Below, one piece after another: positions 1,388 through 63,906 of a stretch of 64,000 nucleotides of DNA; position 1 is the first letter of the stretch, and every line of letters starts with the position of its first letter. A program made the translations under genes and the position numbers. Source of the stretch: an uncultured Bacteroidales bacterium (lineage in GTDB: Bacteria; Bacteroidota; Bacteroidia; Bacteroidales; P3); assembly GCA_905234665.1 (NCBI GenBank), contig CAJOIV010000001.1, positions 31,150 through 95,149 on the forward strand. Reading direction: 5' to 3'. Under the pieces are notes generated by a model. It was not told the DNA's origin. It saw only the letters and a program-made list of their open reading frames with translations, and made no database searches.

Positions 1388-2248
1388 CTACAGGTACGCC
1401 TGCAGGTGTTTGCTCTTGCTGCTGACGCGAAGGCGTTTGATGCCTTTCTCCTTGATTTGGCGGACACGCTCGCGTGTGAGGCCGAACTTCATGGCAATCT
1501 CGTCGAGGCTCAGGGCGTGAGGCATGCCGATGCCGAAGTACATCTTGATGACCTCGCGCTCATACTCGGTGAGGGTCGAGAGGGCGCGCTCAATCTCTTG
1601 CGAGAGTGACTCCTGCATCAGGGCGCTGTCGGTGGGCGGGGTGTCCTCGTTGGGCAGCACGTCGACGAAGTTCACGTCCTCGTCGGCCACGAGGGGTGCG
1701 TCGATGGAGATGTGGCGGCCCGAGATGCCGAGGATGCTCTTGATTTTCTCCTCGGGGATGCCGAGCATCTCGGCCAGCTCCTCCTCCGATGGCGGGCGCT
1801 CGAGTTCCTGCTCGAGACGGCTGATTTCCTTCTTGAGTTTGTTGAGGGCTCCGAGCTGGTTGGAGGGCAGGCGCACGATGCGCGAGTTCTCGGCGATGGC
1901 CTGGAGGATGGACTGGCGGATCCACCACACGGCATAGGAGATGAACTTGAAGCCACGGGTCTCGTCGAAACGCTTGGCGGCCTTGATGAGACCGACATTA
2001 CCCTCGTTGATCAGGTCGGGCAGGGAGAGGCCCTGGTTCTGGTACTGCTTGGCCACAGAGACAACGAAACGCAGGTTGGCCTTCGTCAGTCGGTCGAGCG
2101 CGGCCTGGTCGCCTTGCTTGATGCGCTGGGCCAGCTGCACCTCTTCCTCGGGCGAGAGAAGCTCCTCGCTGCATATATCCTGCAGGTACTTGTCCAACGA
2201 CTTAATGTCTCTGTTAGTGATAGAATGGGTAATTTTCAGTTGTCTCAT
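1388..2248 (-). CDS. rpoD: primary RNA polymerase sigma factor (RpoD/SigA type)
   Basis: The 286-residue sigma-70 protein starts at MRQLKIT; the ORF track extends 129 codons further upstream, but that extension is low-complexity intergenic DNA. Region 1.2 occupies about residues 8-45. The region 2 core ([20 protein letters not shown], then [10 protein letters not shown]) is intact, regions 3 and 4 follow, and the C-terminal helix-turn-helix is [18 protein letters not shown]. Absence of region 1.1 and of the proteobacterial insertion is normal for the Bacteroidota housekeeping sigma factor, which recognises TTTG/TAnnTTTG promoters of the kind seen in this window. It is transcribed divergently from ffh. 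Confidence 0.93.
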
Positions 2249-2393
2249 AAATCCGCTTTTTTTATCCTTTTTTACCCATGTAACGCGGAATTGCCGAAAA
2301 TGTTTCATGGAAAAGAAAAAAAGTTTTATTTTCATTTCCCTCTCCATTGCCGCCCCCTCGCCGACGCCTCGTAACGGAGTTTTTTCTTCCATG

Positions 2394-2481
2394 TTTGTTC
2401 TTCGTTTGTTCTTCGATTGTATTCCGTTTTGAAAACGAAGAAGAATCGAAGAACAATCGAAGAACAAACGAAGAAGAAACG
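2394..2481. repeat. 88-bp palindromic array of eight 11-bp units
   Basis: Between the divergent sigma and ffh genes lie eight exact 11-bp units, each ending in CG: tttgttcttcg twice, attgtattccg, ttttgaaaacg, then aagaagaatcg, aagaacaatcg, aagaacaaacg and aagaagaaacg. The left half is the reverse complement of the right half; 2398-2420 and 2453-2475 form a perfect 23-bp inverted repeat. The unit length is close to one helical turn. Longer arrays with the same 11-bp rule lie at 29597-29813 and 63699-63906. The rest of 2249-2640 shows no gene. Confidence 0.85.
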
Positions 2482-2627
2482 AGCCCACGGCAAAGGCGCG
2501 GCAAAGCCGCCCCGACCCCATAGGAAAGTTGCGGCATAAGGAGGGAAGCCTGTTGGGGATGCCACAAAAACGACAGGCCTTTTCCTGCAGTGACGGATGG
2601 ACTTTCTGCCCCGTTAGCCAATCAAGT

Positions 2628-2658
2628 TTGGCCATATAAAAAAAAAGTTGTATATTTG
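2628..2658 (+). promoter_or_regulatory. Bacteroidota-type promoter of ffh
   Basis: TTTG at 2628-2631 and TATATTTG at 2651-2658 are separated by 19 bp, matching the TTTG-N19-21-TAnnTTTG consensus. The ffh start codon follows 28 bp downstream. Confidence 0.85.
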
Positions 2659-2686: not shown

Positions 2687-4018
2687 ATGTTCGAAAGTAT
2701 TAGTAGCAAGATAGAGAAAGCGTTACACACGCTGCGCGGAAAAGGAAGCATCACCGATATTAATGTCGCCGAGACCGTCAAGGAGGTGCGCAAGGCCCTG
2801 CTGGACGCCGACGTGAGCTACCCCGTGGCAAAAGAATTTACCGACAAGGTGAAGGCCGAAGCCATGGGCCGCAACGTCATCCAGAGCATCGAACCCGGAC
2901 AGTTGATGGTGAAGATTGTCCACGAGAAACTGACCGAGCTGATGGGCTCGGAGGCCGTGGATATCAACATCAAAAGCCAAGCCGGACAGCCCGCAGTCAT
3001 CCTCATCGCCGGCTTGCAGGGTTCCGGTAAGACCACCTTCAGCGCCAAGCTGGCCTACCACCTGAAGAACAAACGGGGCAAGAACGTCATGCTCGTTGCG
3101 GGCGACGTGTACCGTCCCGCCGCCGTCAGCCAGCTGCAGACCCTCGGCGAGCAGGTGGGCGTGCCCGTCTTCACCGAGGAGGGCAACACCAACCCCGTCG
3201 ACATCGCCCAGAAGGCCCTGCGCGACGCAAAACTGAAGGGCGTCAACGTGGTCATCGTCGATACCGCCGGCCGCTTGGCTGTCGACGAGCAGATGATGGA
3301 CGAGATTGCCAGCCTGAAGGAAAACCTCAAGCCGCAGGAGACCCTCTTCGTGGTCGACTCGATGACCGGCCAGGACGCCGTGAACACCGCCAAGGCCTTC
3401 AACGAGCGCATCGACTACGACGGCGTGGTGCTCACCAAACTCGACGGCGACACCCGCGGCGGCGCGGCCCTCACCATCCGCTACTCCGTCCAGAAACCCA
3501 TCAAGTTCGTCGGCATCGGCGAGAAGATGGACGCCCTCGACGTGTTCCACCCCGACCGCATGGCCAACCGCATCCTCGGCATGGGCGACGTGGTCTCCCT
3601 CGTGGAGCGCGCCCAGGAGCAGTACGACGAAGCCGAGGCCCGCAAGATACAGAAGAAACTCATCCACAACGAGTATAACTTCGAGGACTTCCTCTCGCAA
3701 ATCGCCCAGGTGAAGAAGATGGGCAGCATGAAGGACCTCATCGGCATGATTCCCGGCATGGGCAAACTGACCAAAGACGTGGAGATTGGCGACGACGCCT
3801 TCGTGCCCATCGAGTCGATGATCGGCAGCATGACCCCCTACGAGCGCCGCAACCCCTCGTGCCTCAACGGCAGCCGCAAACAGCGCATCGCCGCCGGCAG
3901 CGGCCGCAGCATCCAGGAGCTCAACCGCTTCCTCAAGCAGTTCGAGGAGACACGCAAGATGATGCGCACCATCAGCACCAAAGGCAAACTCCCCCAGCCC
4001 CAACGCCGCAGGCGGTAG
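2687..4018 (+). CDS. ffh: signal recognition particle protein Ffh
   Basis: The 443-residue protein is the SRP54 GTPase that binds 4.5S RNA and signal sequences for cotranslational membrane targeting. The N domain is followed by the G domain with P-loop GLQGSGKTTF, the DTAGRL motif and TKLDGDTRGGAAL, then an M domain with the RNA-binding GSRKQRIAAGSG. The start MFESISSKIE was chosen over the track's upstream ATG at 2648 because that ATG overlaps the promoter. The C-terminus ends in a basic tail (QPQRRRR) instead of a long Met/Gly-rich extension. The length is typical. Confidence 0.95.
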   Translation: MFESISSKIEKALHTLRGKGSITDINVAETVKEVRKALLDADVSYPVAKEFTDKVKAEAMGRNVIQSIEPGQLMVKIVHEKLTELMGSEAVDINIKSQAGQPAVILIAGLQGSGKTTFSAKLAYHLKNKRGKNVMLVAGDVYRPAAVSQLQTLGEQVGVPVFTEEGNTNPVDIAQKALRDAKLKGVNVVIVDTAGRLAVDEQMMDEIASLKENLKPQETLFVVDSMTGQDAVNTAKAFNERIDYDGVVLTKLDGDTRGGAALTIRYSVQKPIKFVGIGEKMDALDVFHPDRMANRILGMGDVVSLVERAQEQYDEAEARKIQKKLIHNEYNFEDFLSQIAQVKKMGSMKDLIGMIPGMGKLTKDVEIGDDAFVPIESMIGSMTPYERRNPSCLNGSRKQRIAAGSGRSIQELNRFLKQFEETRKMMRTISTKGKLPQPQRRRR

Positions 4019-4055: not shown

Positions 4056-4090
4056 CTCACACATTCACACATTTACACATTCAAACATTC
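4056..4090 (+). repeat. ACACATTC-type octamer tandem repeat
   Basis: Between ffh and folD, degenerate 8-bp units (acacattc, acacattt, acacattc, aaacattc) run up to the folD start. This is a simple repeat; no other function is visible. Confidence 0.6.
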
Positions 4091-4098
4091 ATCATACT

Positions 4099-4968
4099 AT
4101 GCAGATTTTAGACGGCAAGGCTTTGGCCCTGCAAATCAAAGAAGAGATAGCCAACGAAGTGCGCCAGCTGAGAGCCAAAGGCATGCGCGCGCCCCATTTG
4201 GCAGCAGTAATCGTCGGCACCGACGGTGCCAGCCAGACCTATGTGGCCAACAAAGAGAAATCCTCGCACGAGGTGGGATTCACCTCCTCGGTCTACCGCA
4301 TGGCCGAAAGCACCACAGAGGAGCAGCTTCTCGAGACCATCCAGTTCCTCAACAACGACGAGGAGATTGACGGATTCATCGTCCAGCTGCCCCTGCCCAA
4401 GCACATCAACGAGCAGAAGGTCATCAACGCCATCTCGCCCGACAAGGACGTGGACGGTTTCACCCCCATCAACATCGGCCGCATGGTGCTGGGCGAAGAG
4501 GCTTTCGTCCCCGCCACCCCGATGGGCATCTGCACCCTCCTACAGCGCTACGGCGTGCCCACCAGCGGGCAGCACTGCGTGGTGCTGGGCCGCAGCAATA
4601 TCGTCGGCACTCCTGTGGCCAACCTGCTCAGCCGCAAAGGCGTGGACTGCACCGTCACCCTCTGCCACAGCCGCACCAAAAACCTGCCCGAACTGACCCG
4701 CCAGGCCGACATCCTCGTGGCAGCCATCGGCAAGCCCAAGTTTGTCACCTCCGACATGGTCAAGGAGGGCGTCACCATCATCGACGTGGGCATCCACCGC
4801 ATTCCCGACGACACCAAGAAGAACGGCTACAGCATCATCGGCGACGTGGACCACGCCAATGTCGACAAGCATTGCAGCGCCGTGACCCCCGTTCCCGGCG
4901 GCGTCGGCCCCCTCACCATCGTCTCACTCCTCCAGAACACTCTGAAAGCCTACAAAAAGAAGCTGTGA
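4099..4968 (+). CDS. folD: bifunctional methylenetetrahydrofolate dehydrogenase / methenyltetrahydrofolate cyclohydrolase
   Basis: The 289-residue cytosolic enzyme interconverts 5,10-methylene- and 10-formyl-tetrahydrofolate. The catalytic Tyr...Lys pair appears in TYVANKEKSSHEVGF, the substrate loop in DKDVDGFTPINIGRM, the NAD(P) motif in GRSNIVGTPVANLL, and the C-terminal signature in TPVPGGVGPLTI. The length is standard. The gene ends in AAG CTG TGA; the 14 bases aagctgtgagtttt across that stop recur in the repeat tail at 641-654, so the stop codon appears to come from an inserted repeat. Confidence 0.95.
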   Translation: MQILDGKALALQIKEEIANEVRQLRAKGMRAPHLAAVIVGTDGASQTYVANKEKSSHEVGFTSSVYRMAESTTEEQLLETIQFLNNDEEIDGFIVQLPLPKHINEQKVINAISPDKDVDGFTPINIGRMVLGEEAFVPATPMGICTLLQRYGVPTSGQHCVVLGRSNIVGTPVANLLSRKGVDCTVTLCHSRTKNLPELTRQADILVAAIGKPKFVTSDMVKEGVTIIDVGIHRIPDDTKKNGYSIIGDVDHANVDKHCSAVTPVPGGVGPLTIVSLLQNTLKAYKKKL

Positions 4969-7794: not shown

Positions 7795-7847
7795 AAAAGG
7801 ATCAACCCTCAACCTAATTCCTCATTTCTCATTCCTAATTCCTAATT

Positions 7848-8650: not shown

Positions 8651-9385
8651 TCAGTCTTTCTTGCAGCCCTTCTTGCAGCAGCATTCACCGACGAGGCACT
8701 TGTATGCCAGACCGGCGAGGGCGGCACCCACGAGAGGCGCAACGATGAAGAGCCACAGCTGGCCGCAGGCGCTCCAGCCGTCGGCATTGCTGAAGATGGC
8801 CTGGCTGATGCTGCGGGCAGGGTTGACGCTGGTGTTGGTCAGGGGGATGCTGACGAGGTGGATGAGCGTCAGGGTGAGACCGATGGCGAGGCCGGCAGCC
8901 TTGGTGTTGCTGCGCTCGTCGGTGGCGCCGAGGATAACCATCAGAAAGACAAAGGTGAGCAGAGCCTCGACGAGGAAGGCACCCCACATGGAGACACTCT
9001 GGTAGTCGGCATTGCCCGTGGCGGCGGCGAAGTCGGCACCAAAGCCGTTGGCGGCGAAGACTCCCGTCTGTCCCAATCCCGCTGCATGCCAGACGGCATA
9101 GAGGACAGCACCGGCAACAATGGCGCCGATGACCTGGCTCACCCAGTAGAGAAGCATGTCCTTGAAGCTCATACGTCCATTGACCCACACGCCGAACGAG
9201 ACTGCGGGGTTGAGATGGGCACCACTGATATGGCCTATGCCATAAGCCATTGCGATGACGGTGAGACCAAAGGCGATAGCGACGCCCAGGAATCCGACAT
9301 GTCCGAACAGCGCGGTACCGCAGCCGCCAAGGACCAGCACGAAGGTTCCAAGCCCTTCAGCAAACATTTTGTTACAAATCTTCAT
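8651..9385 (-). CDS. aqpZ: aquaporin Z-type water channel
   Basis: The 244-residue MIP-family channel has six predicted membrane helices and the two half-helix signatures: SGAHLNPAVSFG near residue 54 and TNTSVNPARSI near residue 180. The Arg after the second NPA and the aromatic/His selectivity positions fit a water-specific channel rather than a glycerol facilitator. The C-terminus is unusual for its Cys/Lys cluster (VGECCCKKGCKKD). It is convergent with the lipoprotein gene; no neighbour suggests a specific pathway. Confidence 0.92.
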   Translation of the reverse strand: MKICNKMFAEGLGTFVLVLGGCGTALFGHVGFLGVAIAFGLTVIAMAYGIGHISGAHLNPAVSFGVWVNGRMSFKDMLLYWVSQVIGAIVAGAVLYAVWHAAGLGQTGVFAANGFGADFAAATGNADYQSVSMWGAFLVEALLTFVFLMVILGATDERSNTKAAGLAIGLTLTLIHLVSIPLTNTSVNPARSISQAIFSNADGWSACGQLWLFIVAPLVGAALAGLAYKCLVGECCCKKGCKKD

Positions 9386-29596: not shown

Positions 29597-29813
29597 TTCG
29601 GTGTGGCTTTTATGTTCCTTTTTCCATCCTTTTACTCTTATCTTGCACATACCCAACACTTTTCCCACACTTCTCCTAAGGTACGTTAGAGAAGTGTTAG
29701 AGAAGTGTTAGAGAAACGTTAGAGAAGGACCGAAAGAACAGCGAAGGAACACAAGCGTCACATAAGAACCACACCGAAACCGCCCCCTGCCACCACCCAT
29801 GTCGCCGTGTGAC
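29597..29813. repeat. 11-bp-unit inverted-repeat array, long form, copy A
   Basis: The gene-free 29383-29901 region contains a left pyrimidine-rich arm and a right purine-rich arm ending in TTCGGTGTGG (29597-29606) and CCACACCGAA (29769-29778). Inside, successive 11-mers can be read: cacttttccca, cacttctccta, then cgttagagaag, tgttagagaag, tgttagagaaa, cgttagagaag, gaccgaaagaa, cagcgaaggaa, cacaagcgtca, cataagaacca. A tail with GTCGC-CGT-GTGAC (29801-29813) follows. The right arm and tail are shared with 63699-63906, including aagcgtcacataag and ccacaccgaa. Confidence 0.85.
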
Positions 29814-63578: not shown

Positions 63579-63698
63579 CGCAAAAAAATCGATATATTTA
63601 GAAATATATAAAATAAAAATATCGTTATGAGTGATTAGTGACTCGTTATTTTTTAGTTTTTACATTTTAGTTTTTAGTTTTAATCTTCTCCTAGTCGT

Positions 63699-63906
63699 CT
63701 CTCGGTGTTCCTTTTATGATCTTTCTTCCTTCCTTCGGTACTTACCCTGCTGATATTCAACTGTTCTCCCACTGTTCTCCTATCCTACGTTGGAGAACAG
63801 TTGGAGAACAGTAGGGAAACAGTTGGAGAACAACCGAAGGAACACCGAAAGAACATAAGCGTCACATAAGGACCACACCGAAGTCACTCCCTTGTCACCC
63901 TGTGAC
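63699..63906. repeat. 11-bp-unit inverted-repeat array, long form, copy B
   Basis: The gene-free 63548-64000 region carries, from 63699, a pyrimidine-rich arm and a purine-rich arm readable as 11-mers: tattcaactgt, tctcccactgt, tctcctatcct, acgttggagaa, cagttggagaa, cagtagggaaa, cagttggagaa, caaccgaagga, acaccgaaaga, acataagcgtc, acataaggacc, acaccgaagtc. A tail with GTCAC-CCT-GTGAC (63894-63906) follows. Units differ in sequence from copy A, but the period, arm polarity, right-end block and tail are the same. Confidence 0.85.

Follow-up and report, generated by a model that had tools for sequence, protein, structure and literature searches.

The intergenic region between a primary sigma-factor-like gene and the divergent ffh gene of an uncultured Bacteroidales bacterium contains a block of near-repeated 11-bp words facing one another in inverted orientation, which raises the question of what kind of element this is and what holds its step so constant. 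The locus lies in a stretch of 64,000 nucleotides, referred to here as the window, from a genome denoted G000. Eight units, each closed by a CG dinucleotide, make up the core (Table 1), with CG at positions 2403, 2414, 2425, 2436, 2447, 2458, 2469 and 2480, so that the 11-bp step described previously is exact through both arms and the centre. The placement of the array between the two divergent genes and its perfect 23-bp inverted repeat, both stated in the preliminary description, were also confirmed, whereas the eight units, which had been called exact, proved to be similar: TTTGTTCTTCG occurs twice and is accompanied by ATTGTATTCCG, TTTTGAAAACG, AAGAAGAATCG, AAGAACAATCG, AAGAACAAACG and AAGAAGAAACG. 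The 23-bp repeat, the longest perfect one in the array, is centred at about 2436.5 and thus off the dyad of the long imperfect palindrome, the arms of which are 83% complementary. The promoter assigned to ffh was called on the Bacteroides −33/−7 consensus.

Table 1. Features of the element and its neighbourhood (positions counted from the first nucleotide of the window).
Feature	Position	Strand	Evidence
Core array, eight similar 11-bp units, CG closing each	2394..2481	.	Sequence, CG positions, lag-11 score, TRF period 11
Imperfect palindrome, 48-nt arms 2383-2430 / 2432-2479, dyad 2431	2383..2479	.	Strand fold z = −8.1
Perfect 23-bp inverted repeat, left arm	2398..2420	+	
Perfect 23-bp inverted repeat, right arm	2453..2475	-	
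Degenerate left outer arm, GC-rich 11-bp units, consensus GCCGCnCCTTC fading outward	2327..2393	.	Alignment of 26 copies
Degenerate right outer arm, GC-rich 11-bp units, consensus GAAGGCGCGGC fading outward	2482..2535	.	Alignment of 26 copies
Neighbouring gene, primary sigma factor like, MRQLKI start at 2248	1388..2248	-	ORF translation, intergenic comparison
Neighbouring gene ffh (signal recognition particle GTPase)	2687..4018	+	Homologues in 32/37 genomes
Bacteroidetes-type ffh promoter, TTTG ... TATATTTG, outside the element and downstream of it	2627..2658	+	Sequence

A chance or low-complexity origin, in favour of which only the AT-rich composition could be cited, is refuted by two observations and its probability is virtually nil. 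The best lag-11 self-match in the sigma-factor/ffh intergenic region scored 27, against a maximum of 9 among 1000 dinucleotide-preserving shuffles, none of which reached half of the observed score, and about 26 homologous copies exist. Indeed, the array belongs to a non-coding repeat family scattered through the intergenic DNA of G000, in which about 26 separate loci were matched at 85-97% identity besides the self-match of the window copy. In copies aligned on the dyad, pairwise identity is 0.92 over units 0 to ±3 and drops symmetrically outward, to 0.70-0.49 at units 4 to 7 and to the background of 0.25 near unit 10 on both sides; in the alignment of 26 copies, the left outer arm fades from 0.58 (unit −4) to 0.34 (unit −9), and the right one from 0.70 (unit +4) to 0.31 (unit +9). 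While the sequence decays, the 11-bp frame persists for about nine units per side, with no evident shift in runs of up to about 19 units, and the inner-unit consensus (GWTTGTTCTTC / GAAGAACAAWC) gives way to that of the outer arms. Since both frame and consensus extend into these arms, the full element measures approximately 200-230 bp, beyond the 88 bp first noticed. Within the core, A is exchanged for T, or C for G, in 69% of pairwise differences, where composition predicts 38%, and transitions account for only 17%. The pattern of strong and weak bases is thereby kept, which could also arise if only a few alternative unit words circulate.

Two more 11-bp arrays of the same design, belonging to another family, are found in the window at 29685-29727 and 63789-63855, with the words GTTAGAGAAGT / GTTGGAGAACA followed by ACCGAAGGAAC, ATAAGCGTCAC and ATAAGGACCAC. 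A third palindromic 11-bp family of G000, AT-rich (TATAGTTATAC) with GC-rich flanks, was seen in L218 (13863-13967) and L222 (8556-8634), the latter also containing a non-palindromic array of nine 11-bp units, GGGTACAGAAG / GGATGCAGAGG, at 8696-8797.

Further species of this uncultured genus of rumen Bacteroidales have high-copy 11-bp-step elements of their own; although the units often have unrelated sequences, the step invariably measures 11 bp, and the arms are usually mirrored. In genome G029, a 103-bp version has about 140 candidate copies, 40 of which were scored and found to be 95-99% identical to the query. Among 44 aligned copies of this family, identity is 0.98 at the centre, a near-identity of cores that could stem from recent spread or gene conversion instead of binding constraint, and falls to 0.86-0.90 at units 4, 0.61-0.64 at units 5 and 0.45 at units 6, reaching background beyond about unit 9. 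G012 yielded a further palindrome, (ACGGTAGTATT)3 plus a mirror arm, with about 72 candidates, and G009 a third, built on YNNCAACTCCG plus a mirror arm, with about 50. The design varies in G001, where each of 24 half-arrays runs from (CGAAGAACARN)2-6 into about four units starting with CCT; these conserve CC(T) at positions 1-2(-3), the other positions being much less conserved. Outside the CGAAGAACA block, CC occupies positions 1-2 in 23, 20, 15 and 20 of the 24 copies (units 1-4) and in five at the next unit; with units 1-5 taken together, it stands in frame in 83 of 120 cases, against 1-36 of 120 at other offsets. As these half-arrays have no mirror arm, dyad symmetry is not essential.

Units of different families may also share a single array. 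Chimeric arrays combining two or three families in one frame were found at the RGIG4772 loci L106 and L109 and at L414 of G012, one frame being held on each side of the dyad, and several unrelated families have frame and dyad symmetry in common. Several species have unrelated 11-bp arrays in the intergenic regions upstream of ffh and lon; other species have none there. A half-array in the lon leader, between promoter and start codon, is common to G001, G004 and RUG134 (L307, L305 and L158, respectively), and its frame is held despite changes at other bases and in the spacer towards the promoter, making it a good candidate for a functional test. The lon starts were located with an approximate query (the first 60 residues of the Lon of L110 plus 47 generic Lon residues), which served for locating only. 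Taken as a class, these genus-wide elements have a core in which about nine 11-bp units are homogeneous, generally arranged as two half-arrays facing across a dyad, and outer arms that are degenerate but in frame.

The very stable fold of one strand of the window array (−47.2 kcal/mol for 2380-2490; z = −8.1) could indicate an element acting as RNA, as a transcribed hairpin, a terminator or an mRNA leader, in which the 11-bp step would match the turn of an A-form stem. Several G001 half-arrays do lie between promoter-like sequence and start codon, in probable leaders and mostly in the direction of the gene, and paired changes in the two arms are in excess in G009, lending some support to hairpin selection in that genome. 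No such support came from covariation in G000 or G029, where compensatory changes numbered zero in 26 copies (0.4 in shuffles) and one in 44 copies (0.5 in shuffles), respectively. Furthermore, many copies are placed between divergently transcribed genes and precede both promoters (the 14 of 24 G000 copies between divergent genes do not clearly exceed the make-up of long intergenic regions), the G001 half-arrays form no hairpin, and no Rfam family was matched at gathering score: the window locus yielded only sub-threshold microRNA hairpins, which are generic stems, and for G001 and related loci the only hits were tRNA and 5S rRNA. A role as RNA is therefore very doubtful. For the G001 leaders, Rho-utilisation sites, in which pyrimidine-C dimers recur about every 11 nt, were also weighed and set aside, as the spacing is exact and eight of the 24 half-arrays follow an opposite-strand gene.

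The distribution of periods was assessed by scanning lags 4-40 under one scoring rule. The sequence covered amounted to approximately 460 kb from G000 and 400 kb each from G029 and from other members of the genus, plus about 360 kb from other families; extra stretches of G009, G012 and G022 were also included in the period sample. Segments in G000 (463 kb) concentrated at lags 7 (40), 11 (22) and 8 (10), with few elsewhere except at multiples; those of G029 fell at lags 11 (43) and 22 (53), with none at lag 7, and the genus sample contributed 27 segments at lag 7 and 19 at lag 11. The sampled Bacteroidales of other families gave three segments at lag 7 and two at lag 11, both of the latter being A- or T-rich low complexity. 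According to the preliminary description, a genome-wide scan finding such periodicity to be common in shuffled intergenic sequence would have spoken against the array; lag 11 is instead among the few enriched lags in this genome, and local shuffles of the window produced no lag-11 segments. By midpoint, 80 of 83 11-bp arrays from five species are intergenic, the next start codon typically lying about 200 bp away, and 20-55% of the intergenic regions of at least 200 bp carry one.

Tandem arrays of 7 bp, by comparison, are found in short gaps and appear to form a class apart, with a fixed period of their own. They occur in the window at 1355-1389, 7813-7847 and 63646-63681 and about 40 times per 463 kb in G000, usually with four to five units of words such as CAATTCT, CCTAATT and TTAGTTT, or elsewhere AGGTTAT and TTCTTAG, and are absent from the G029 sample. 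An 8-bp array, TCACACAT, was also observed in the window at 4057-4091, and about ten similar arrays of the CACATTTA type in the 463 kb of G000.

These distributions bear on a neutral origin by hairpin-templated copying, in which slippage and template switching in quasi-palindromes would amplify and homogenise 11-nt units without selection. Palindromes are substrates of template switching, the units inside one array are alike, and in G009 the variants TCCG/CGG and TCCC/GGG tend to co-occur in both arms, with 18 paired changes against 6.9 in shuffles. On the other hand, paired changes do not exceed shuffles in G000 or G029, and slippage explains neither the restriction to a few periods (7, 8 and 11 in G000; 11 in G029), nor the near-complete avoidance of genes by 11-bp arrays, nor the one frame common to unrelated units and chimeras. 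Template switching may thus help to homogenise the arms, leaving the fixed period and the intergenic restriction unexplained, and as a full account of the arrays it is unlikely.

By their spread and turnover, the repeats behave like non-autonomous mobile DNA, and they could be nothing else: miniature mobile elements of REP or MITE type, in which the 11-bp repeats would be only the ends recognized by a transposase and serve no function for the cell. There are 26 to about 140 copies per genome, with near-identical cores, the families are species-specific and the design is palindromic. At the window locus itself, the element is missing from the corresponding region of relatives G017, G018 and G020, the Ffh proteins of which are 88-90% identical to that of G000; the intergenic region upstream of ffh measures 160-162 bp in these genomes and 438 bp in G000. 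Such multiple, dispersed non-coding copies, polymorphic between relatives, are one of the features of MITEs, and the arrays resemble bacterial MITEs of the RUP, Correia, NEMIS and RU-1/2/3 type in their length (about 100-250 bp), intergenic dispersal, inverted symmetry and presence or absence between relatives. They differ in their internal 11-bp tandem structure and in the gradual fade of identity in G000 and G029, without a sharp border; even in the sharpest family, that of G012, in which the ends are fairly well defined (CCTCCGCC...GGCGGAGG), no target-site duplication could be read. Neither an autonomous copy nor a parent transposon was recognized, no paired arrays around a gene, the sign of such a parent, being seen among the loci viewed, and the frame of the lon-leader arrays is held across three species. 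Purely mobile DNA is a somewhat improbable explanation.

Nor does the RAYT transposase account for them as a mobiliser. The arrays share with REP/BIME sequences, the GTAG- and CGTC-tagged palindromes associated with RAYT, their high copy number, intergenic position and palindromic form. REPs span 20-40 bp (PMC3733652), whereas the present core of about 100 bp lies on an 11-bp grid and carries no GTAG or CGTC tag in 2380-2490, which excludes it from the REP class. The Y1 transposase (PF01797) is missing from the two high-copy genomes G029 and G009, which are 97% and 95% complete and carry about 140 and about 50 copies, respectively, and RAYT was rejected as the mobiliser. Two Y1/RAYT-like genes exist in G000 (L077, 1494-1943; L078, approximately 1470-1943), flanked by other, ordinary REP-type palindromes, GTGCCTCCGGCAC and GGGCGTAC...GTACGCCC. 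A CRISPR array was likewise discarded, as the units are contiguous and have no spacers. Phage and plasmid collections gave no match, IMG/VR viral contigs gave none, and such Bacteroidales elements were not described in the open-licence PMC literature. The arrays are of a broad kind, the bacterial interspersed repeat; they do not conform to the REP/RAYT definition, and none of the database records or papers found describes their modular 11-bp design.

The frame outlasts the sequence, words are interchangeable within it and the strong/weak pattern of G000 is kept, all of which points to a lattice read by a candidate protein. Our preferred reading, which we hold at even chances, is that the 11-bp grid of this dispersed non-coding repeat sets out helically phased sites for a cooperative DNA-binding or DNA-wrapping protein, with a plausible role in topology or domain organization, and that the copies have spread in the manner of a non-autonomous mobile element. 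Each step, about one turn of underwound DNA, would most likely offer the same face to one protein subunit, the core providing strong nucleation sites and the outer arms weaker ones into which the complex could spread. The preliminary description had suggested helical phasing for a protein bound to one DNA face, with DNA bending or a footprint of replication or recombination as alternatives; the constancy of the frame despite unit change and family mixing agrees with helical phasing, the protein itself being predicted, although a step of exactly 11.0 bp, against 10.5 bp in relaxed B-DNA and 10.75 bp in the gyrase motif, does not guarantee alignment on one face over many units. A more tentative possibility is that the whole genus uses such a modular lattice, composed of interchangeable 11-bp words on a strict helical grid with dyad mirroring, borne by dispersed repeats in a fifth to a half of the long intergenic regions and read by a predicted wrapping or filament protein, the word preferences having changed between species and the grid having remained unchanged.

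Head-to-tail 11-bp sites that are bound cooperatively are found in the PhoB box and in parC of plasmid R1, which is bound by ParR, and the array likewise presents tandem head-to-tail 11-bp sites. Those systems occupy one or a few loci beside the cognate gene, whereas the present arrays are dispersed by the dozen, often mirrored and built from many unit families. Periods of about 11 bp are commonly taken to reflect the helical pitch under negative supercoiling (PMC4132750). The ~11-bp AA/TT periodicity of bacterial genomes has the same period, but as a weak statistical bias, while here whole 11-mers repeat. The E. coli gyrase motif is roughly symmetric and spans 130 bp with a 10.75-bp GC periodicity in both flanks; the enzyme prefers BIME-2 repeats, the units of which bind it (PMC6379681). 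Strong gyrase sites are similar to the arrays in their rough symmetry, extent, helical-period GC modulation of both flanks and location in interspersed repeats (PMC6379681); they differ in that the E. coli motif is degenerate, whereas discrete 11-bp words recur exactly here, and the parallel is to be taken as an analogy only. By that analogy, the most plausible function of elements lying between transcription units would be in local DNA topology or domain organization, as for the gyrase-binding BIMEs of E. coli.

If the lattice is real, the arrays would be the sequence-visible footprint of a chromosome-organizing or regulatory complex in abundant, uncultured rumen bacteria, and they would make it testable whether proteins select for the helical phasing of bacterial intergenic DNA whatever its exact bases. 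Even as plain mobile DNA, they would constitute a non-RAYT repeat class that reaches more than 100 copies in a 2.1-Mb genome with no recognized mobiliser. Arrays of the CGAAGAACA type with an 11-bp step were also observed in other lineages, in L120 (Limisphaerales) at 4894 and in L157 (Marinilabilia sp. UBA5340) at approximately 2950; the latter is mirrored and has CG every 11 bp, and the class may thus extend beyond this genus.
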